Source: Echinococcus granulosus
Taxonomy: Eukaryota; Platyhelminthes; Cestoda; Cyclophyllidea; Taeniidae
Direction of reading: 5' to 3'
NCBI RefSeq assembly: GCF_000524195.1
Contig: NW_020170548.1
Span: forward strand, 13,612 to 77,611
Length of the DNA stretch: 64,000 nucleotides
Below the pieces are notes generated by a model. The model was given only the letters and a program-made list of their open reading frames with translations. It had not been told where the DNA came from and ran no database searches. The translations under genes were made by a program, and so were the position numbers. Positions 48-64,000 of this stretch are shown here, in pieces; position 1 is the stretch's first letter, and the number at the start of each line of letters is the position of its first letter.

Positions 48-1181
48 TCATCTTTCGGTATCTTCGTTAGCCATGGTGGCTCGATGAGTGGAAAAGGTTC
101 CTTCTGCAAAATTTAGGACGATTTTGGTGTAGTGTAGGAAATCGGCATCAAGTAGCACGTCCCAGGCATGTTCTGAACACACATTGAATTTCACTGTCCA
201 GGTTCCCTTCCCTATGCAGACTTCTAATGATGTCTTTCCTTTAACTAGCATCTCCCTTCCTTCTGCTGAGAGCAATTTTGTAAAAGGGGAGAGGATCTTA
301 ACCCTGTTACAAAGGGCAAGGAAGACTTGGAGATTCACAATTGACTTAGCTGCACCGGAGTCGAGAAGAAAACTACAGGAACGTCCTTCAAGTTTACCTG
401 AAACCCGTATATAAGAATGGGAGCCATTTGGGAGCAGACAGGAAGGGGAAAAGGAGGGCCCACCTGGTCTAGGGGTATAACGCGGGGAGGCACGACGCAA
501 GGATTTTGAATTTGACCAGTTTTGAAGCTTTTAGACGATAAGGGGCGCCCGATCTTCTTGCTGCTTCTTGGTTGCTAGCTTGACCAATTGGCCGAGCGAG
601 TCGGTCTTTGCGTTACAGAGCTTCTCAGCCAAGGTGGGAGGTCAAACTCCGTGTCTAAACTGGACCGTTGTCCAGTTGGCGACCTTGTTTGGAAGACAGC
701 CATGGAAAACGCGTTTTGCCAGAAGTTGAAGGTTCTTGGCGTACACTTCGTCATCCTCGTCGGCTTTTTGGAAAAGCAGAAATAAGTCCCTGACAAGGGT
801 TTGCTCTTCTCGATCGATGATGTGTTGGGTCAATGTATCGCAGCATTGGTCAATGTCGGTGTCGTGGGTGATGCCGGCTCCGACTGCGGCCACAAATAAA
901 TCATGAGCAAGAGCGCGTACAATCAGGGGTATTCTTTGACACTGGGGATAGAGATGGAGATCAAATTTGGTAGTTATGAGCCAGTCTTCGGAATTCATGT
1001 CTTCTGCGAAGGGAGGTAGGCCCGCCAACGCTGCCACCAATGTAGAGCGAGACCTGCAGGTCTCCTCCCTTCTCTTCTCAGTACGTCTAGAACAACCCGG
1101 TTGGTTTAATTTTAGCATATTTTTTAAAGGGAAGTGGATCGGGAGAATAAGTAGAAAGTTTGGAGTGGGGAGGAACCGCAA
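48..1181 (-). pseudogene. Degenerate Gag-protease ORF of an LTR retrotransposon (CsRn1/Gypsy-like)
   Basis: A single minus-strand frame reads from about 1181 to 48. The Gag part (1181-645) holds a motif of the type DWLITTKFDLHLYPQ...RIPLIVRAL, typical of flatworm Gypsy/CsRn1-group Gag proteins. The protease part (500-48) holds the retropepsin active-site motif LLDSGAA followed by hydrophobic strands. The frame is broken by two in-frame stops, TGA at 642-644 and TAA at 531-533, so it cannot give an intact polyprotein. Reverse transcriptase and integrase would lie left of the window. The Gag start is uncertain; the open frame continues upstream of the recognisable domain. Family assignment rests on motif recognition only. 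Confidence 0.7.
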
Positions 1182-1201
1182 TCCTTCTCAGGATTGGGAA
1201 A

Positions 1202-3440: not shown

Positions 3441-3889
3441 TGCGATGAAAGTATTTACATCGGGTGGATCGCGATTTCTTTGTGATTTAGCCACAAAGTC
3501 CGGGAGCAAGACCAGAGAACGACAGGACCGTCGCTGTCACACCAAGCAGTTTGCTTGAACACTGGACTAATGAATTGTGTAAGTTGCTACATGGTAGAGT
3601 AAACCCTTCGGCTACTGATCCTGACACTAACGATGAAACAGATCGAAGTCTAGGCGGGTAGTCTATCTCTTACACAGTTGTGTTAGCCGTGGTGATGCTG
3701 TAGAGGGGCTCAAAGATAGCTACTCCGATGTTGATCATCTAGGAGACGTTTTGACTGCAGGTAGGGGAGTTGCACAAGGGTTTTGATGGCTTAGTTATTT
3801 GTGGTGAGGCAGGATCATGCAATGGGTTATTCTTCGCTTGTTTTTAGTGGTTCCAATTTGAAGAAATCAGGAAATCAGACATCCGAAGC

Positions 3890-4660
3890 AGTGACCCAGC
3901 TAAACTGCCCGAGAGGGGTTCTTCTCTCGAGGACCTCTATTCATAGCGATCTTTTGAAGTACTTTAATCTTGCACACTTCGTCACCGTTGATCCTCTGGG
4001 GCTGCAGCGGAGTTTCCAAACAGGTTCGCAACAGGCATTCTGCGTGGCACAGCCGTGGGCGTGACTGAGGCTGAACAAAGTGTCGGGGACGAGTGGCTCT
4101 GAGAGGTTTTAATTGCTGGAATTTACCTAACATATCAAATTCCACCTTCTCGGTATCGTAAGGCGGTGCATTATACGACAAACTCAGGCTCTGTTGACTG
4201 AATATCAGCATCGGCGGCGATAGCGGTGGTGATTCAACAGCCAGCCAATCAGCCATCCCACTAGCCAGTTGCAAGCTGAGCGAGCTCGTTTCTTTCCCCA
4301 GCCTGTTTGACTCAGCCCTCAGAGCCAATCCTTTTTCCGAGGTTGAGGATCAGGCATGACGACTTTTCTTACCTACATTATTCTAGTGCCAGAGGCTCTT
4401 CACCTTGGAGACCTGATGGGGATGTGGGTACGGCCTGCCACGAAAATAACACTGCCTCCCTCGGATTTTCAGGGGCCCACAAGAGGGTAGGTGCTTTACG
4501 GAGGTGATACCCGATTCCAGGGGTAATAACCGCCCTTACAAAGAAAAGAAACTCTCCCCGGAACTCTTGCCGACATCTTTGAGTTCGTTTGCCTTACCAC
4601 GCCTGATGGTGTCACCCTATCATGTGCCAACCGGTTACTTCGCAGGCCGCCTGCAGCAGC
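3890..4660 (-). pseudogene. Degenerate 28S (LSU) rRNA fragment
   Basis: Read on the minus strand, this stretch follows the 28S core in order: a CCGGGGAGAGTT-like segment then TTCTTTTCTTTGT (about 4560-4530), CCCTGAAAATCCGAGGGAG (about 4475), GGCCGTACCCACATCC (about 4430), CAGGTCTCCAAGGTGAAGAG (about 4410), ACAATGTAGG-like AATAATGTAGGTAAG (about 4380), and AAAGGATTGGCTCTGAGGGC (about 4325). These are well-known conserved LSU blocks. Many substitutions show it is a decayed copy. The left part (about 3890-4290) looks like a diverged expansion segment and may continue to about 3450. ORFs here, including a 142-codon minus frame, are translations of rRNA. Confidence 0.85.
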
Positions 4661-4673
4661 AGCAGCAGCACTG
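4655..4673. repeat. Short CAG microsatellite
   Basis: A GCAGCAGCAGCAGCAGCA run lies at the edge of the 28S-derived segment, probably a simple repeat within or next to an expansion segment. Confidence 0.6.
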
Positions 4674-4699
4674 CAAACTAACCAACCCACCAACCGGCA

Positions 4700-4800
4700 C
4701 CACCTAGCCCTAACCTTAATCCTCTCCCAATCTAACCCCTATCCAACCCTGCCCCTTTCCCAAACCCCTATCCCTACTTCTGTCTTTTTTCTCTATCGCT
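4700..4800. repeat. C-rich, degenerate CCCTAA-like strip
   Basis: Irregular repeats such as CCCTAACC, TCTAACCCCT, CCAACCCTG and AACCCCTATCCC fill this strip. It resembles worn telomere-type (TTAGGG) sequence or a simple pyrimidine-rich repeat. No regular period holds for more than two units. Confidence 0.35.
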
Positions 4801-9378: not shown

Positions 9379-9765
9379 CATTTTAGTGGCGTATGGTGCA
9401 TCGATACGCATAACGTTACCGTTTCTCATAAATAAATCCAAAGTCAACAGGCGGCCGAGTTGCATAAATTGTGTAAAGTCGCCAATGTGCACAATTTGCA
9501 GATGTAACATGGACATTGAAGAATCTACCAGAGTACTCGGAATGACCAAGGGAATCAAACTCCTTAAAATCAAAATTTTAAAGTGCGCAATGTCTGCCGC
9601 CCAATGCCATACCTTCCATCGGATGTTGTATTTATGTACTTGCTTGCGTTTGAACTCTTCCATGCGCTCCTCGCAGAGCTTCTTCAGCCGTGCTTGAACT
9701 CGTTGTGACGTCGCGGTGGCTTCCAACTTTAGATCGTTGATGGCCTTTAGATGGTTCTCCAGAAA
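9379..9765 (-). CDS. Large unknown gene: long exon, coiled-coil then hydrophobic strands
   Basis: Acceptor TTTTTTGCTATTAAAG|TTT opens a frame of about 129 codons. First comes a charged helix (NHLKAINDLKLEATATSQR, then ARLKKLCEERMEEFKRKQ). Alternating hydrophobic strands follow (HKYNIRWKVWHWAADIAH, then LHLQIVHIGDFTQFMQLG). The downstream donor is not certain: ATG|GTCCTC at 9379 keeps phase zero, but AACG|GTAACG about 30 bases earlier is closer to consensus. Entry phase zero matches the preceding exon. Confidence 0.6.
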
Positions 9766-10176: not shown

Positions 10177-13100
10177 CTGTAATCCCGAATTCAAGAGATT
10201 GGTTTGAATTGCCAATGAACATGCCACGTTACTTTGATGTGTATAAAACTATGATGTGGTGTATTCTTACACCGGTATTTGCAAAAAGTGCCGACAAATT
10301 TTGAGATATTGTAATATTTCCGTGGTTTATTAGCATTTATTAATGCTTTGACCCCCTAATTCAGACAAGAAAGTCCCAGTTATTTCCACGAAACACTGCA
10401 TGTACTGCAGAAACTAAATGTAGGATTCTCCATATAAAACTGCCTCGTTTCAGGTAACTCACAAAGTTGTAAAGTGGTTTTAATAGCCATGAAACAAGTT
10501 CTTAAATGGCGATACTTATTCAAAAACCATTTCCACCTATGACTGAGCTCACCTTGGCTTTGCCCCGTGTCCTAGGCGAGGCGTCCTATTTGATCAAGCA
10601 AACAATGTTTCAGGGAGGGTGTTGATGTACTCTTCTACCCGAAACTCAAACAAAAACTTATAAAATATAGAAAAATAAGGTAATCCATTCTTCAACTTTA
10701 CCAAGTTTACTACCTGTAATCTAAAAAGAAAAGTGGTTCCCATAAGATGAACAAATAGAAAAAGTGAACTCACTCCAAGTTGGTTGAGCCTCTTAAACCT
10801 TTAAAAAGAGATTTTAAGCATAAATATAAGTTTCTTTGCTAATACTAACTTGATAGACCTAAATATGACTTTAACCTCTTTTAATGAAGAATAAATATGT
10901 AAATTGGAGCAAGATACACAATACTTGCAAGAATCAAAAGGAGAAAGTAGTGTCGGATAAAAGTTCCCAATTTTTTTTGCCTTTTCAAAATGTCCCATAA
11001 AGGAAATATGAAGGAAATCCCTCTCCGTAGCTAAATTCTATTAATATACGTTTGCATTTGCCAAAGTCAGTTGATTTGAAGTTAATCCCAAACATCAAAA
11101 TTTCCAAATCACTCTTTGGTTTCAAAAAAACGCTTTAAAGAAATCACAGCTTTTTTGATTTTCACATTAAGTCTCGTGAAAATTATAGAATCGATGACTT
11201 TTTTATGCATATATATGATAATGCATTTAAAGACATCTAGGATAAGAAATTTTGATTAATCGTACAATGTAGAGCTTCTTATTTTCAAAGCACTAAACTA
11301 CAATCTGACAGTAGATGGCCAGAAGTGTCGCCTTTCATTGAAATAGGAACCCACTCACCAGCAATGTGGACACCTCCCTGGATAGCTTCCGCATTGGACG
11401 CCGATCTCGTCTCAAATCCCCCTAGGCCACCACCTCCTCCTAGTCGTCGTCGATGTCTACTCGACCGACGTCTTGAGCTGGATAATGGCAACTTCAATGA
11501 GGTTCTATATGAGCTCTCAATGTTCGTCATCGCATTGTCGTTGACCTGATGATGACAGAGAGCCGACGGACTTTGGATTACATTCAGCTCCCGCAAGCGC
11601 GATGGCTTTTGCCCAACTTCGTTAGAAATCGGTAGACATAGCGCAGAAGGCGTACGAAGTGTTGACTTGGACCTAATTATTACAAGCTAGAGTCTTTTGT
11701 CTGGTCGATCTTGGGCATAGTGTTATCAATCCATCACCCAAAGAAAAAAATATACCGCATTTTGTTTTCATTTTTTAATTCTATCATTAGATTTTGCAAT
11801 TCTTTATCTGGCAAAGGGTAAATAGCAAAGATATATTGTACGCTTTAATGCAAAATGTCACAAAAAACAATTTGAGTTTTCTATTACTTAATGGAAACTG
11901 TCAGCTACCACTTTAAAATCTACAGTAAGTCTTAAAATGTGACCTATTTAATCACTGGGGGACTTTACGTTCACTTTACTTGATTACGCGTCGATAGAAC
12001 ACTCATGGGTTCTTGAGTTAACACCTACCCTAAAAGAAATTTTTTTAAAAAGCAAAATAACCTACGAATCAGGTGGAGAAAAGTGAGAGCTGTCCTGAGA
12101 GTCGGACTTGGTAGCTTCCTCGGGAGTGCAGGTCTGGGGTTGTGTAAATGCAGCTTCACCTTTTACGGGGACAAAGAAATCATCTCATTTTCCTCATCTT
12201 GGAAGCGTATAGACATAAAAGTCGAAAATATGGGAATGTTGAACCGGTATTAAAAAACATATTATTGATGTATAACAAGCTCTCTTTTTGCCTCTGTAGC
12301 GAAAAAGGTGTGCTGGAATTCTAATCTATAATGCAAAATTCGTTAGTTCTTCAATTGGTTTAAAAGAGCCAAAACAATTTTTTGCAGGAAACTTTCATAC
12401 CTCCATTGTCATTTAGCGTAATTGATGGCAGCTGGGGAGGTTTTAGTCGAGGAAATTTTTGAGGAGGTCTTCAAAATCAAAGAACGAAAATGCAAAAGCA
12501 CTGTGTTATCATTTACACAAATAAGTGATTTATTTGTCACTGTGTGAAAAGCTTGCTAGTTATTAACTACCCGGTTACAAATTCTCTTAAAAGGGCCATA
12601 AATTCTCATAATACAACTAAAAAACTGCTCATTTTCTGCCATGGTCAAATAGATTATGTTTTGACTCCTTAAAAATGGACTGTACTATTCCTATTCATAA
12701 ATAAATAAAGATAAAGGACATACAAAGTGGAAATAAAATCCACTGGAGACCCGGGTCTTCCTAAAAATATTCAGTTAAATATCAATATTCAAGCAGGAAT
12801 TAACTCATCAAGCAGCGTTTTATTTTTAACGGAATTTTAAGAGCGATTTTGTGTCACTTGCAGGACATTTAAGAACATCATACAAGAAACAGTCTACCAT
12901 AAAAATACAACATAAGCAAGAAGAGCATGATTCTTCGCAAAAACGCTCAAGACTGCTAAGTTTCTACTCAAAAATATGCGTAATACGCTATTTATTTGAT
13001 AGGGCCATATACGGTGATCTGCCTTGGCAATTGTGCCTGGCGGTCGATCCTCCAGTCCATTTCAGTGGCTCCTATCTCTTTAATATGTTGATAATGCATG

Positions 13101-20491: not shown

Positions 20492-20717
20492 CTGCTCTTC
20501 CAAAAGAGCTCAATCGACTATTCACGCTGCAAATAGACTTCTCACTTCCTACGCTGCATTCGAGAATGGATATGCAAAGGACCTACCGGTAAGCCTCTGG
20601 AAGAACAGTAGGTCATCGTATTTTACGTCCGTCGTGGGCTTAAAGTCAGGGGGGCTCTACCCGCGCCCACTTTAAAAGCATCTTCTGACATGCAAGCCAG
20701 TGCACTGGCCTCATTAC

Positions 20718-20852
20718 GGGCAATGTAATCTTCCCATCCTCATCCTCAGGTTGAAGTGGTTCATCATCAGGGCGTCTATATGTCGACTTATGTCTATGAC
20801 CAGCGTTAAGTGGGCCATCATCAGAGACTTTATGTATTGATCTACATCTACC
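20718..20852 (-). other. Open, acidic, coding-like segment of unclear status
   Basis: Between AG|GGT and CCC|GTAATG lie 45 open codons with an acidic segment (RRPDDEPLQPEDEDGKITLP). Phase zero at both ends does not fit the neighbouring exons directly. It adjoins the rRNA-derived block, so it may be part of that insertion and not an exon. Confidence 0.15.
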
Positions 20853-21244
20853 CTGCATGCTACGTGACCCACCACCTAGGAATCGCTATATGGATCTCCT
20901 CCCATGACTCAAGGCCACCTGACCTCACTGCTGATCGATATATGATGCAATGCATGGTTCCGAAAAAGTCGTACAAATATTGCTATATTCATGGAGCGGT
21001 GCTTACGTAAATGTGCATCATTCCTCAAAGGTAGTTTACTATGGTGTTTTCAGCGCAATATCACAGTTCAACTCCCACCTGACAGTAATGTCGCCAGACG
21101 GGTCACTGATTGCACCCTGGCTTGCAAGCCACATAAAATCATTGCCATATGGTAGACCTATAATAGCCCAGACCGGTCCAGCGATCGACCGACCGGACCG
21201 ATAGATCGCAGTTGCAGTATCACCATCAGCCAGCCTCCTGATAA

Positions 21245-23070
21245 TTGCTGTCGCCGAAATGATCTCACTATACCATTTAATCGGTATCAGTGACGGGCAA
21301 TGTGTGCGAAGGGTAGGGACGCATTCAGCGCACGTTTATGACTTGCGCTTGCTAGGAGGCACAAGTCAATTACAGGGAGCATTTTCAGGTCCTAATTTTC
21401 TGCTGTCACGATGGTGGCTGACAAGTTCGATTAACCATCTTTTTAGTCAGGGCAGAGGGTCTAATCGGTTAACACCGTCATTACAGCGTGCAAATGATCT
21501 CGATCCATACTGAGTCAAATCAATCGGCAGCCACCACTCGTGGTAGCGCTTTTCAATTAATTCCTTCCATTTTCAGCTTCATACCCATACTTTCTTCTGA
21601 GGAACCTAAGCACTGTAGAAATTGGGGTGACAGCTTTAAGGATGGTGGTAGCACAGATACCACCATCACAGATCATCAGTTGGCATTATTTATGGTCAAA
21701 AGTGAGATGATTGTATCTCATCTTTGACCTCGTCGAGCCTCATAGCTCGCTTATGGTCATTAAATATATGCTTGACGATTGCTTTTGCCTTAGTTTTTCT
21801 GGCTGCAGTCTGGATTTCTCCTCCATTGCAGCCATACAAACGTCCCCTCCTGTCTCTTTTGATTATTACCTCGGGCTCAAAAACAATCGAATGAGCCATC
21901 TAGACTTGTCAACCTATTCCATTTATCAATGCAAAACTTTTCCGGTAGCATCATTTTGANNNNNNNNNNNNNNNNNNNNNNNNNNNNNNNNNNNNNNNNN
22001 NNNNNNNNNNNNNNNNNNNNNNNNNNNNNNNNNNNNNNNNNNNNNNNNNNNNNNNNNNNTTTTAGTGCTTAAATTTGCCTAAGAAAAAGCACTATCTGCC
22101 CACAGACACCACAGTCTCAAAGAGAAGAATCCATCGAAATGCATGCTAACAAGCCACTAACGGGATCGGATTACAAAGTGCAAAGAATAGTACCTATCAC
22201 CCGCCCACGTCTGTGGCTGTTGCGCCACAGACACGGATTCAAAATAACCCCAACTCTTTGTTGTCCTAACAATACAGTGCTGATTAAAAGGCCTGCATAA
22301 GCCTGACATCAAAGGTGATTGAGCTAGCCACCAACATACAGACGCCAGGATTGCATGCCGACAGCCACACACCGGCCGCTCAATTATCCGCAGGTAGCGG
22401 TGCCACAGAGGTCCAATTATGAGCCTTTTATCCAGGCAATTTTAATATACTTTATTAAAGGTGGAGTTATTATGGCTTCTCTAGTCAGCCCTGACCTACA
22501 ATTGATTTAATTGAAAGGATTTAGAATTCACTTTTTCCTATTACTGAGCACACTCCTTTGCTTTAATGACTCCCTCATCAGTATTTTTGTCACCACCTCA
22601 CCTCCCTAAACTAAAAGTGGGTAACTCGCAAGCTTGCTACCGTTCCTCAGGCTATCATTTTAGCGAAATCGTGATCTTAATGTGCGTTACCCCTTACTAT
22701 TACCACCATAGTAGGCAGTTAACCATCCACTGTTAATGATCAGCTGGACGGACGTTTGAAAAAAGCAATCAACAATGCCGACTCTTAACTACCAGCTGCA
22801 GTATGCAGCAAGTATCCGGTGCCACCAAAATTTCGTCCACGAACGTAAAGACCTCTCGACCGCACGCGCACAATTGATTGGCTTTTTTGATCTAAATTAG
22901 TGTATTAGCTTTAAAGTTGTTGCGGTTATTCATTTAACGGGTACGCTTTAGTAAACCATGGCTGACTAAATGGGAACATCCGAAGCCTCTCTGAACTTAG
23001 GCGTGAAGTGGGACAAGTATGGATTAATCCTTGGGACCTGCATATGACTACCGGCAGGATCAACCAAGTA
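21245..23070 (-). pseudogene. Nearly full-length degenerate 18S (SSU) rRNA copy
   Basis: On the minus strand the 18S 5' end, TACTTGGTTGATCCTGCC, starts at 23070, followed by GTAGTCATATGC. Further landmarks follow in order: CGTACCCGTTAAATG (22945-22931), TATGGCTGCAATGGAGG-like sequence (about 21830), AAAACTAAGGCAAAAGCAAT (about 21795), GACCATAAATAATGCCAAC (about 21690), AAGTATGGGTATGAAGCTGA-like sequence (about 21590), and AAGCGCAAGTCATAAACGTG (about 21348). After those come the CACACATTGCCCGTC and AATGGTATAGTGAG blocks (about 21310-21265). Spacing fits a whole 18S, but many substitutions show decay. The final ~100 bases are not recognisable. A 100-N gap interrupts it. It lies in an intron of the large gene. 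ORFs inside are not proteins. Confidence 0.9.
21960..22059. other. Assembly gap (100 N)
   Basis: Exactly 100 N, the usual placeholder for a gap of unknown size. It falls inside the 18S-like copy, so that copy may be longer, or collapsed, in the real genome. Confidence 0.99.
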
Positions 23071-23211
23071 GTTCGCATGCCATAGGCAGCAGCAACAACA
23101 TCAGCAGCTAGCAGGTGAGCAAGTGACTGTACGAATGGCAAACCCAACTGTGTGTACACACAGACATGTGAGAGAGCGCACCCACAGAAGCGCTATCCAC
23201 ATGTTCTTACT

Positions 23212-23229
23212 CCCCCCCCCCCCTCCCCC
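23212..23229. repeat. Poly-C run
   Basis: Twelve C, one T, five C, flanked by CA/TG-rich alternating sequence (GTGTGTACACACAGACATGTG and CACGCGCACATACACGTG). It lies just upstream of the 18S-like 5' end. Confidence 0.8.
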
Positions 23230-23474
23230 AATGCCCACGCGCACATACACGTGCGTTGCATCCTTCCGAGATCGCTAGCGCAACGCACCCCACAAAATTA
23301 CACACATCAGACAGACTGATAATAACGATGGAAGAGACTACCCTTAAAGAGCTCACGACAGAATCAAACCAGTTTAGCCTAGTCTAGTCCACCTCACCAA
23401 TGTCAAAATTACGAGGTATAATGTGTCAACTGCTACTCCAATAAGTGAAAGAGTGAATAAGTATATTCACTTAC

Positions 23475-23563
23475 CGAAAGTAGTTGACATTTGCAATTTG
23501 ACTTTCCAATGCGCGGATGTTGGGGTATTATAACAATGAGACTGGATTTTGAAATTCCAAAAA
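23475..23563 (-). CDS. Large unknown gene: exon
   Basis: Acceptor ACAATTGCTGCAG|T and strong donor TTCG|GTAAGTGA. Peptide FWNFKIQSHCYNTPTSAH then WKVKLQMSTTF has alternating hydrophobic strands. The longer overlapping ORF (99 codons, other frame) is likely a shadow, because this frame matches splice phase with both neighbours. Confidence 0.55.
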
Positions 23564-24809
23564 CTGCAGCAATTGTAGTTCTTCCCGCTCCTTCAAGTAA
23601 GCTTTTATCAGATTGCTTTCTCCGTAGTAAATAAGTAGCACAATGATGCCTTTTGATTAGATCGCCGATAATTTGATTCAATAAAAATATGCATGAGGTT
23701 CTAGTAATGCCACCCGTATTAATCACTCTCAAAAGTTAATTGGAGCGGTTAAAATCTTTGTGTGCCTATGGGGATATGCTTTCAATTTTCCTCCAATTTT
23801 CCTCTCTGTGTATACCTTATTTTTTTCCTGGCAAACAAAAGTTGGCCTTTAATGCAATCCACACTTGCCAATAGTGCGAATATTGCTCCTTTTCTTTTGA
23901 GTCATAGACACCGCTACTTTTTGCGAATTTCAGTAATATGCACTTTTATTCCCCAACCAGAACGTCAAAAAAATATATACTCTTCGACGTAAACATTGCT
24001 TCCCTTTATTGTACGAACCGGCTTGCAAAATCACAAATAGTATTTCATGCCTCATTTATGTAGAACCTATACATTTAACGCTACTAGCAGTTGTGAAATT
24101 ACAAACTACAAACTCATTTGTTGCACCTTTAATCAGATTAGTCGACCTACTGATTAGATATTAGTGGCAATTATGATGTGCTTGCAGAAATGACAGATGA
24201 TGAGCCGCAAATTTTCTGCTGTCATCACAGTAAGCAAATGCAGCAAGTGGTTTTACCATGCGTTTTTGTAATGTTTAAGGTGTTTCAGTGTCATAACACT
24301 CTTCCATGAGATTGTGTGATGGATCTAATGAAAGCAACGGCATCACGATAAGTTGAATGCCACTTAATTATAAATGAATAGAGACCATGACAACTGGCGC
24401 AACAGCCTTCGTAGATTAACATCAAGGATCTGAACGCTCTTGTCTCAAAATTATGCAAACTTAAAGGGACTATCCTAAAACTTGACTTGGGGGTTAAAGG
24501 TCGTGCAAATTGTGACTTGCACAATCTATTGGTTATATTATTTTTACTTGTTCCTCTTAGTGAATTATCTCTACCCAACTGAGCAAAAGTTGAAAACATT
24601 TCGCATTATTACCGTGGTCTGAAAGCACCGCCAAACGTATAGTAAAGCTGGCAAGTGCAAATATAAATATCGTCCGCATAACTTGCACAGATCGACCATC
24701 GATTGACCTTCACCTGCCTAAGTGTAATCGCTGCCCACTTGGTGCCAGGTGGGCCAATCGGAATAGAATGTGCTGCAAACTTGCATGGCCTGCAGACTTC
24801 TAACATTAC

Positions 24810-26865: not shown

Positions 26866-28004
26866 CTGTTACCTACACATGCGAATCAGATTAATCATTC
26901 TAACACAAAGTGGACAGTGTTTACATGCGATTGTATGATGATCAGTTGACATTTGGTCCGTAAAATTCATGTCATTAATAAACATACGTAAATTTAAAAG
27001 TGTTTTAAAAGTTTGCAATTGCACTTTCGGTCATTGTAAACGAAGTCTTTTGAATTTCAGTTCCACAGATATTTCAAAATGATCTTTATTGCTCAATATA
27101 CGCAGTATTACCTCTCAGAGTTAAAAGTGAATTGCCACTGTAGGTTAAAGAGCAAAACACTTGAGCTAGGCATTATTTGACCACGTAAGTGAATAGCAAA
27201 AGTCTTTTCTTGCCAGTCTATGGTGGTCGTTGAATGGCATGCAGTGCGGCAGCCAATGTGATGGTGGGTAGACAACTTCTGCCTTTCTAGAAGAGGATGA
27301 CACAACTACATATCTATAAAAGGATTATTTTTCTAGTCAAAGGTGTATTTTAGCAGATATACTTCAGTGATATTGAAAATTTCTATAAAAATATTCTGAC
27401 GACATCGGTTTTAGTTGTATAAGTATATACATCTGGTTTGAGTGGTTTAAATAATTTATGCGAAATAAGCGAACATGCCGTAAAAGAGATGAAGGATCAA
27501 GTGTCAATGGGAATTTGAAGGTGATATGGTGTGTAATTTAAGTGTATACTTCCACAGCCTCTAATACCTATCTTTAGATTAACATAGAATATATAGACTG
27601 GAATTCAACAGCGGTAATACTTTAAAAAGAAAAGAATTCTGGCCACTTGTTTTTATCAAGTAACGGGTAAAAATCATCCGGATTTACAGACTTGTTTACC
27701 TTAATAAATGATCTGCATAATTATGCATTACACCTTCTTCATTAGTTGCGGGTTAATTCGAAATAATCGCAGCATTACAAGGGTTGCCAAATTTGCGTAT
27801 ACTGGAATTACCGATAATAAAATATGTTAAATAAGGCATGGAAACATGCGTTCTTTTGAAGCGTGATAATAAATACCTATGTATGGATTCACGACAGTCA
27901 GTCACGTAGGGAGAGCCTCGTGATTTTAAACGATTTGGCTAGTGCGCTGCCTATTGGATGAGACCGTTTAAGCCAATCGGACTAAACGGACACCCTAAGC
28001 GAAT

Positions 28005-28652
28005 ATGATGGGTAAAGAGAAGTGGGTGAGATTGAAGAAGATTGAGAGGATGTTTAGTCAGATTGCGCGGATCAATGACCATCTCTACTTGAGCAGTTTG
28101 GCGGCACTGACACCGACCCGACTGCAACAGCATGGCGTGACGCAAGTGATCTCCGCCATGGTGGAGGTGCTTCCACCGGAGCTGTTGGCGGAAGGTGGGC
28201 GGCGAACACGATCACACGTGCAGATTTGTGTGGAGGATATAGAGAGCGCAGATCTGAGTGTTCATTTTGACTCTGTAGCGGACCGCATTGCTCGAGAGGC
28301 ACGGCGAGGAGGGCGCAGCCTCGTGCACTGCGTGGCTGGGGTGTCACGATCTCCCAGTCTTGTTCTTGCCTACCTTGTAAAGCATTCAAGCATGACATTG
28401 GCAGAAGCATACGATCATCTCCGCCGCCTCCGACCCTGCATACGTCCAAATCCGGGTTTCTGGCGCCAGCTTATCAAATACGAGGTAGAGCGACGTGGTG
28501 TGCCCTCGGTGTGTGTGGAGGGTAGCCTAAGTAATCCCTCCTCCCGTTCCTCTTCAACCGCGTCCACCTTAGTAAGGAATAGTCTTGCAAATACATGGAC
28601 TTTACCGCGTTACCGTCATCAATGGAACGGATACCTTCATGGAAAATATTGA
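28005..28652 (+). CDS. Dual-specificity protein phosphatase, DUSP14/18-like
   Basis: Intronless ORF of 215 residues. The catalytic loop HCVAGVSRS (Cys109, Arg115) is the dual-specificity/protein-tyrosine phosphatase signature HCxxGxxRS, and Asp78 is a candidate general acid. The N-terminal IARINDHLYLSSLAALT and the following RPCIRPNPGFWRQLIKYE match the small atypical DUSP subgroup (DUSP14/18/21/28), which removes phosphate from Ser/Thr and Tyr of MAP-kinase-pathway proteins and has no separate MAPK-docking domain. The C-terminal ~50 residues are Ser-rich and unique. Met17 could be the true start, since homology begins just after it. The gene lies on the opposite strand to the large gene, apparently inside one of its introns. 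Confidence 0.93.
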   Translation: MMGKEKWVRLKKIERMFSQIARINDHLYLSSLAALTPTRLQQHGVTQVISAMVEVLPPELLAEGGRRTRSHVQICVEDIESADLSVHFDSVADRIAREARRGGRSLVHCVAGVSRSPSLVLAYLVKHSSMTLAEAYDHLRRLRPCIRPNPGFWRQLIKYEVERRGVPSVCVEGSLSNPSSRSSSTASTLVRNSLANTWTLPRYRHQWNGYLHGKY

Positions 28653-63484: not shown

Positions 63485-63560
63485 CTGCGTAGAGGCGAGC
63501 ATCAAAAAATCAAATAAAGTGGCTGCATAAAGCGTATCTATCGTAATGTATTCTGTCTAC

Positions 63561-63831
63561 CTATAGACGCCTCGACAGGCTGCGTAGATCCAAGAGATGA
63601 TGATGAAGGGTGGCGGGAGCAGAGGTCTCGACTCGTATTCGATAATGATGGAGTAGCGGAGGTACTTATAAACAAGCTCTGATTGTACCAGTACACTAGA
63701 ATAGATGCTGTTGAAGACAGCAATGATGACATTGAGTATGAGAACGATAGAATAGAGGAGGTAGATAGCTCCCATAACTGGCACCATCTGATAGAGGGGT
63801 GTCTCCTCCAGGTTTGCATCCCAGTTCGTGG
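63561..63831 (-). CDS. TRPM channel: S6 and TRP-helix exon
   Basis: Acceptor TTTCTTTATTCTGCAG|CC and donor TATAG|GTAGAC. The exon encodes the end of the pore and S6 (GAIYLLYSIVLILNVIIAVF, then NSIYSSVLVQ) followed by the TRP helix (ELVYKYLRYSIIIEYESR) and PLLPPPFIIISWIY. The last is a TRPM hallmark (family form RPVLPPPLIIFSH). TRPM proteins are tetrameric, mostly calcium-permeable cation channels of the plasma or intracellular membranes. The pore helix, sensor-like domain and N-terminal homology region lie beyond the right edge. Confidence 0.95.
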
Positions 63832-64000
63832 CTGCAGAATAAAGAAAAATGGTAAGGTAGCCAATCAAGCCATCCTTTCTAAGGCAAAATACCAATTTCT
63901 ATTGAATTGTCAATAGGCCATCAAATCAATGGTAAAGCATCTACGTTTTTACTTGCTGCTTCCTTGCTTTACCAAAGTATTCCTAGCCTCCATAGCCACA

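Follow-up and report, generated by a model that had tools for sequence, protein, structure and literature searches.

An old, broken 18S rRNA pseudogene among scattered rDNA pieces in the genome of the tapeworm Echinococcus granulosus

An 18S rRNA gene copy that lies on the minus strand at 21207-23070 in a 64,000-nucleotide stretch of Echinococcus granulosus DNA (the window) is an old and broken pseudogene derived from rDNA, a kind that is already known. Whatever the route by which it arrived, it is very probably a dead descendant of the worm's own rDNA and presumably has no function at present. It is homologous to the rRNA of its own lineage, it lies outside the rDNA array and it has decayed without the constraint seen in functional 18S, with a reservation for its less conserved base pairs that is discussed below.

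Materials and methods

The assembly consists of 103,588,672 bases in 272 contigs, and the window covers positions 13612-77611 of contig C105, which is 145,580 bases long. The reference panel was drawn from eukaryotic 18S sequences that occur as contaminants inside bacterial records, and comprises 17 loci (L005-L021). L005 and L006 are PLSDB plasmid records and L007-L021 are GTDB contigs, all with eukaryotic 18S; L006, labelled as an Acinetobacter baumannii plasmid, is 18S across all of its 1764 bases, as far as the alignment shows. Eleven of the 17 loci were used for the substitution rates, the pairing test, the profile HMM and the estimate of K. The others (L007, L010, L011, L012, L017 and L019) are partial, interrupted, short or divergent and were omitted from these four analyses; L012 was nonetheless used in the comparison with the 18S of contig C134 that concerns the lineage of the copy. 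In the step which comprised the C134 alignment for the 3' limit and the nhmmer search for LSU, 16 loci (all but L019) were scanned.

The alignment underlying the substitution rates, the pairing test and the profile HMM included the pseudogene itself. For the pairing test a consensus structure was folded from L018, L006, L020 and L021, and the null distribution was made by 2000 shuffles. DNA search is insensitive at the divergence encountered here, so that the rDNA copy counts are lower bounds; for instance, the 18S piece of C134 as the query matched only itself and missed the copy in the window.

Extent and decay of the 18S copy

The original prediction of an 18S-derived, colinear and heavily substituted nuclear pseudogene in this flatworm is borne out by a significant covariance-model match, by three profile HMM blocks and by a change of 31% at conserved columns. 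With RF01960 (Rfam SSU_rRNA_eukarya), cmscan matched 21179-23070 of the minus strand with 165.4 bits and an E value of 9.7e-46, over model positions 1-1831. The profile HMM of the 11 reference 18S sequences gave three colinear blocks on the same strand (23068-22406, 21945-21508 and 21486-21260) and zero matches at E up to 1 on 10 shuffled windows.

From the mature 18S 5' end, the 5' domain block extends over 22406-23068 (minus strand; 118.1 bits, model 3-641) and holds the single occurrence in the readable assembly of the exact 18S 5' motif TTGATCCTGCCRGTAGTCATATGC. A run of 100 N at 21960-22059 falls within V4 according to the alignment, and the central domain block lies at 21508-21945 (minus strand; 100.3 bits, model 790-1201). 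At a deletion junction located by alignment and profile HMM (21487-21507, minus strand), model positions 1209-1487 (276 positions) are replaced by about 10-21 bases, so that the 3' domain lacks about 270 nt. The 3' domain block (21207-21486, minus strand; 60.2 bits) has a cestode-like V8 and ends within helix 44, and blastn aligns it with the C134 18S at 69.5% over 246 columns. Homology to this 18S, the assembly's own, stops near 21207 and so falls about 105 nt short of the gene's 3' end; the end of the cmscan match at model position 1831 is therefore read as forced, and the 3' limit of the copy was set by the C134 alignment. With model positions 1209-1487 and the last ~105 nt missing, the copy is not a full-length 18S as a functional gene would be. 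To call it almost complete, as had been done, is generous in view of the gap of ~270 nt in the 3' domain and the 3' loss of ~105 nt.

At the 804 columns that are universally invariant in the panel, the pseudogene is gapped at 188, has N at 3 and is aligned at 613. Substitutions occupy 192 of the 613 aligned columns (31%; 124 transitions and 68 transversions), whereas the leave-one-out change rates of the 11 panel 18S sequences are 0.3-10.6%, and the sequence conservation of a functional 18S is thus lost. Among the 13 column bins with aligned bases, the change rate is 0.22-0.41 in ten and 0.10, 0.47 and 0.58 in the rest. The two-parameter formula gives K ~0.42 substitutions per site for the universal columns. 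The decay had been proposed as a molecular clock, of which the measurable K stands, but the value is uncalibrated. It had also been expected that the copy contaminates 18S-based read mapping, which looks unlikely at a divergence of 31-34%.

The same picture is given by the conserved base pairs. The pseudogene allows 95 of them to be scored: 36 are intact, 43 are changed on one side (19 of them canonical) and 16 on both sides (8 canonical). Canonical pairs number 63 of 95, with a shuffle mean of 59.1 (p 0.10), and compensated pairs number 8 versus 6.5 expected (p 0.28). The functional fast-evolving controls have 119/124 (L020), 103/116 (L013) and 116/119 (L021) canonical pairs, i.e. 88.8-97.5%, each above all 2000 shuffles, L013 being the sole control outside the fold and L020 and L021 having also gone into it. 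The compensated structure of a functional 18S is thus missing at the conserved pairs, where the decay shows no detectable constraint. The reservation concerns the less conserved pairs: when these are included, 128 of 199 scorable pairs are canonical versus 113.6 in the null (p 0.002), and 22 are compensated versus 14.8 expected (p 0.02), an excess which may be ancestral cestode change but with which a constrained phase early on would also be compatible.

Lineage of the copy and other rDNA pieces

Within the 3' domain the pseudogene and the C134 18S agree in 185 of 279 columns, while for six other eukaryotes the figures are 136/248, 158/276, 142/278, 143/276, 144/277 and 143/276 (51-57%). At 18 sites C134 differs from the state common to three others, and there the pseudogene agrees with C134 at 10, with the common state at 4 and with neither at 4; where C134 has the common state, the pseudogene differs at 45 of 149 sites. 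Since it is closest to C134 and shares 10 of its 18 particular states, the copy, judged by its sequence, descends from the worm's own lineage.

The copy had been described as standing alone, which does not hold for the assembly: the contig also carries a 28S fragment, and a search for 5.8S led to two further rDNA pieces, on contigs C134 and C246. The most intact piece (C134 88750-92168; L027, L028) runs from the 18S 3' end to the 5' part of 28S, with about the last 450 nt of 18S, ITS1, 5.8S, ITS2 and the 28S start in this order, followed by N to at least 99000; on C134, 18S upstream of V7 is unrecognisable. Its change rate at universal columns, 10.3%, is inflated by an upstream part that is judged to be misaligned (15 changes at columns 1500-1649). 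As columns 1950-2399 have 8 changes in 194 (6/57, 1/86 and 1/51), the C134 copy may also have undergone slight decay. The other piece (C246 5816-7301, minus strand; L025) is an isolated ITS1-5.8S-ITS2 with roughly 50 nt from the start of 28S. Its identity to C134 is 80.5% over 1516 columns, the C134 match ends at both sides, and the two 5.8S sequences are identical at 145 of 153 positions. Because this sibling contains spacers, its source would have been DNA or an unprocessed precursor.

The searches of the readable assembly, outside its N stretches, turned up no intact 18S gene. Neither a 98-base DNA query nor a 25-mer (at most 3 mismatches) located the 18S core, and the 28S sarcin-ricin loop was likewise not found at this tolerance. 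The conserved 3' 18S motif, again allowing 3 mismatches, has a single occurrence, which is on C134. Contig C105, with its 145,580 bases, has no second SSU match, and the 81.8 kb beyond the window have no rRNA match at gathering score; the window holds only the 18S copy and the LSU fragment, which places the copy outside an rDNA array. The 2.6 kb around the copy match only themselves in the assembly by DNA search, insensitive as it is at this divergence. A putative third LSU piece on C214 (L034) was taken as chance, with no Rfam match at gathering score and no nhmmer match at E up to 1 for five panel contigs.

The 28S (LSU) fragment of the window is located at 4265-4755 on the minus strand and is best supported at 4265-4602. 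RF02543 matches 4391-4755 (minus strand; 63.4 bits, E 1.6e-12), and nhmmer with L011 matches 4602-4265 (94.7 bits), extending the fragment to 4265. Sites invariant in four references are changed at 10 of 86 in its two well-aligned parts and at 25 of 140 when the poorly aligned parts are counted as well, a range of 12-18% overall. In the larger well-aligned part, two functional references differ at 12/85 and 19/92 and the others at 1/74 and 2/75; as these include rates like that of the fragment, it is the isolation of the fragment, rather than decay, that makes the case for a 28S pseudogene. Since it is less changed than the 18S copy, it is probably younger and the result of a separate event. 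Elsewhere in the assembly nothing matched its DNA in a search that is insensitive at high divergence. Adjoining the fragment is a repeat (window 3488-4207) that recurs at C246 1224-1891, where the ITS fragment is some 4 kb away, with 81% identity over 720 columns.

Origin of the copy

We consider it probable that the copy was seeded at the DNA level, given the spacer-bearing sibling on C246, the absent 3' end and the lack of a duplication or tail, and of the two origins offered by the original prediction it is rDNA recombination that agrees best with these features. The 18S stretch would have left the rDNA array and landed elsewhere as DNA, most likely through double-strand-break repair or ectopic recombination. 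It would then have drifted without constraint, accumulating ~31% substitutions and the deletion of ~270 nt, and the last ~105 nt may have been lost later or may never have been present in the inserted copy.

The other origin offered, in which mature 18S RNA was reverse transcribed by retroelement machinery and inserted as a processed pseudogene, seems unlikely. It agrees with a left edge that coincides with the 5' end of the mature RNA and with the right edge, where no ITS1 is joined (the tail scores 16.5, versus a mean of 14.7 and a maximum of 23.9 in 300 shuffles). However, neither of the marks for which the flanks were searched, a target-site duplication and poly(A), was found: the flanks 23060-23300 and 20950-21270 share no word of 8 nt or longer, their eight 7-nt words, direct or inverted, are at about chance level, and 20501-24000 contains no A/T run of 8 or more. 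This is weak evidence in so old an insertion, from which such marks would have eroded. Target-primed copies usually have a complete 3' end, whereas the 3' edge here is ~105 nt short, and the spacers of the C246 sibling also argue against a processed origin.

It is far less probable still that the copy is the remnant of a second, divergent cestode 18S or rDNA type, which worked under structural constraint and later died; in that case a lost ribosome variant would lie buried in a compact tapeworm genome. Such a history would fit the compensation excess over all pairs (22 versus 14.8, p 0.02), and two rDNA types are known in some flatworms, the planarians, according to the accessible part of PMC10991399. 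But the conserved pairs have no clear excess (8 compensated versus 6.5, p 0.28), the 145,580-base contig has no further SSU match, and the planarian types in that source are 93.68% identical in 18S, versus ~66-69% here. An assembly chimera, or 18S contamination from a foreign eukaryote, is hardly credible: the 100-N gap inside the copy might invite it, but the two halves match in colinearity and in their degree of decay, and no 18S compared is closer to the copy than that of the assembly itself.

Related systems are known. The human genome has dispersed 45S rDNA pseudogenes, as described in the accessible part of PMC5865718, in which rRNA-derived segments were detected by BLASTN and removed from the analysis; human rDNA pseudogenes are also the subject of Robicheau et al. 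2017, as cited in the part of PMC10462631 at hand. As far as these excerpts go, the human pseudogenes and the tapeworm copy are alike in being rRNA-derived and apart from working units, and the latter differs in its host and in a decay that hides it from DNA search with the assembly's own 18S. Land planarians have paralogous rRNA clusters with 93.68% 18S identity (PMC10991399, accessible part). Divergent 18S in a flatworm is common to both, but the planarian clusters, as presented there, are complete whereas the tapeworm has a single broken copy at ~66-69%.

Within the genus, ITS1 variants were reportedly described in Echinococcus by van Herwerden and colleagues in 2000, which would mean heterogeneous rDNA copies, as the C246 fragment also suggests; those variants concern ITS1, whereas the present copy is an isolated 18S fossil. 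In a partial coverage of the literature by titles and abstract beginnings, no 18S pseudogene in Echinococcus or other cestodes was found.

The decay of the 18S copy (~31%) and of the 28S fragment (12-18%) suggests that rDNA fossils of differing age persist in a compact parasite genome (~104 Mb), a sign that rDNA has escaped more than once. With orthologues from other taeniids the insertion could be dated and a neutral rate obtained. As a practical warning, since the readable assembly yielded no intact 18S, an 18S search there returns the pseudogene and one partial 3' piece.

Neighbouring genes and window ends

The original prediction placed the copy inside an intron of a protein gene. The closest exons supported by homologues are 9.5 kb away on the lower side, ending at 11674, and 4.9 kb away on the upper side, starting at 27999. 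The lower ones belong to a two-exon gene (9610-9753 and 11360-11674, minus strand) homologous to the Taenia solium hypothetical protein P0034, whose residues 1-19 found no convincing place in a full-length search (best E 0.61). The upper one is a DUSP14-like dual-specificity phosphatase ORF (27999-28652, plus strand; Pfam DSPc 1.4e-29), which an Echinococcus granulosus protein matches with 100% identity across 74% of the query and proteins of Taenia and Hydatigera with 79-82%. From 87 stop-to-stop ORFs of at least 55 residues listed around 14-34 kb, 8 at 14.1-26.7 kb were scanned, and none reached the Pfam cut-off, with two weak matches below it. An intron is thus not shown by any exon pair around the copy, but an upstream exon of the P0034 gene beyond it is possible because the first 19 residues are not placed with confidence. 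For the Taenia solium homologues on both sides, P0034 and that of the phosphatase, the longest contig given is 41,149 bases, which suggests conserved synteny.

At the window start, an ORF at 642-1187 (minus strand) has a Pfam DUF5726 match (6e-49) and 48-530 (minus strand) has a gag-type aspartyl protease match below the cut-off (1.2e-5); together these are probably the remains of a retroelement. Near the opposite end, at 63557-63898 on the minus strand, lies a TRPM-channel-like exon (PDB 6d73, E 1.2e-15).
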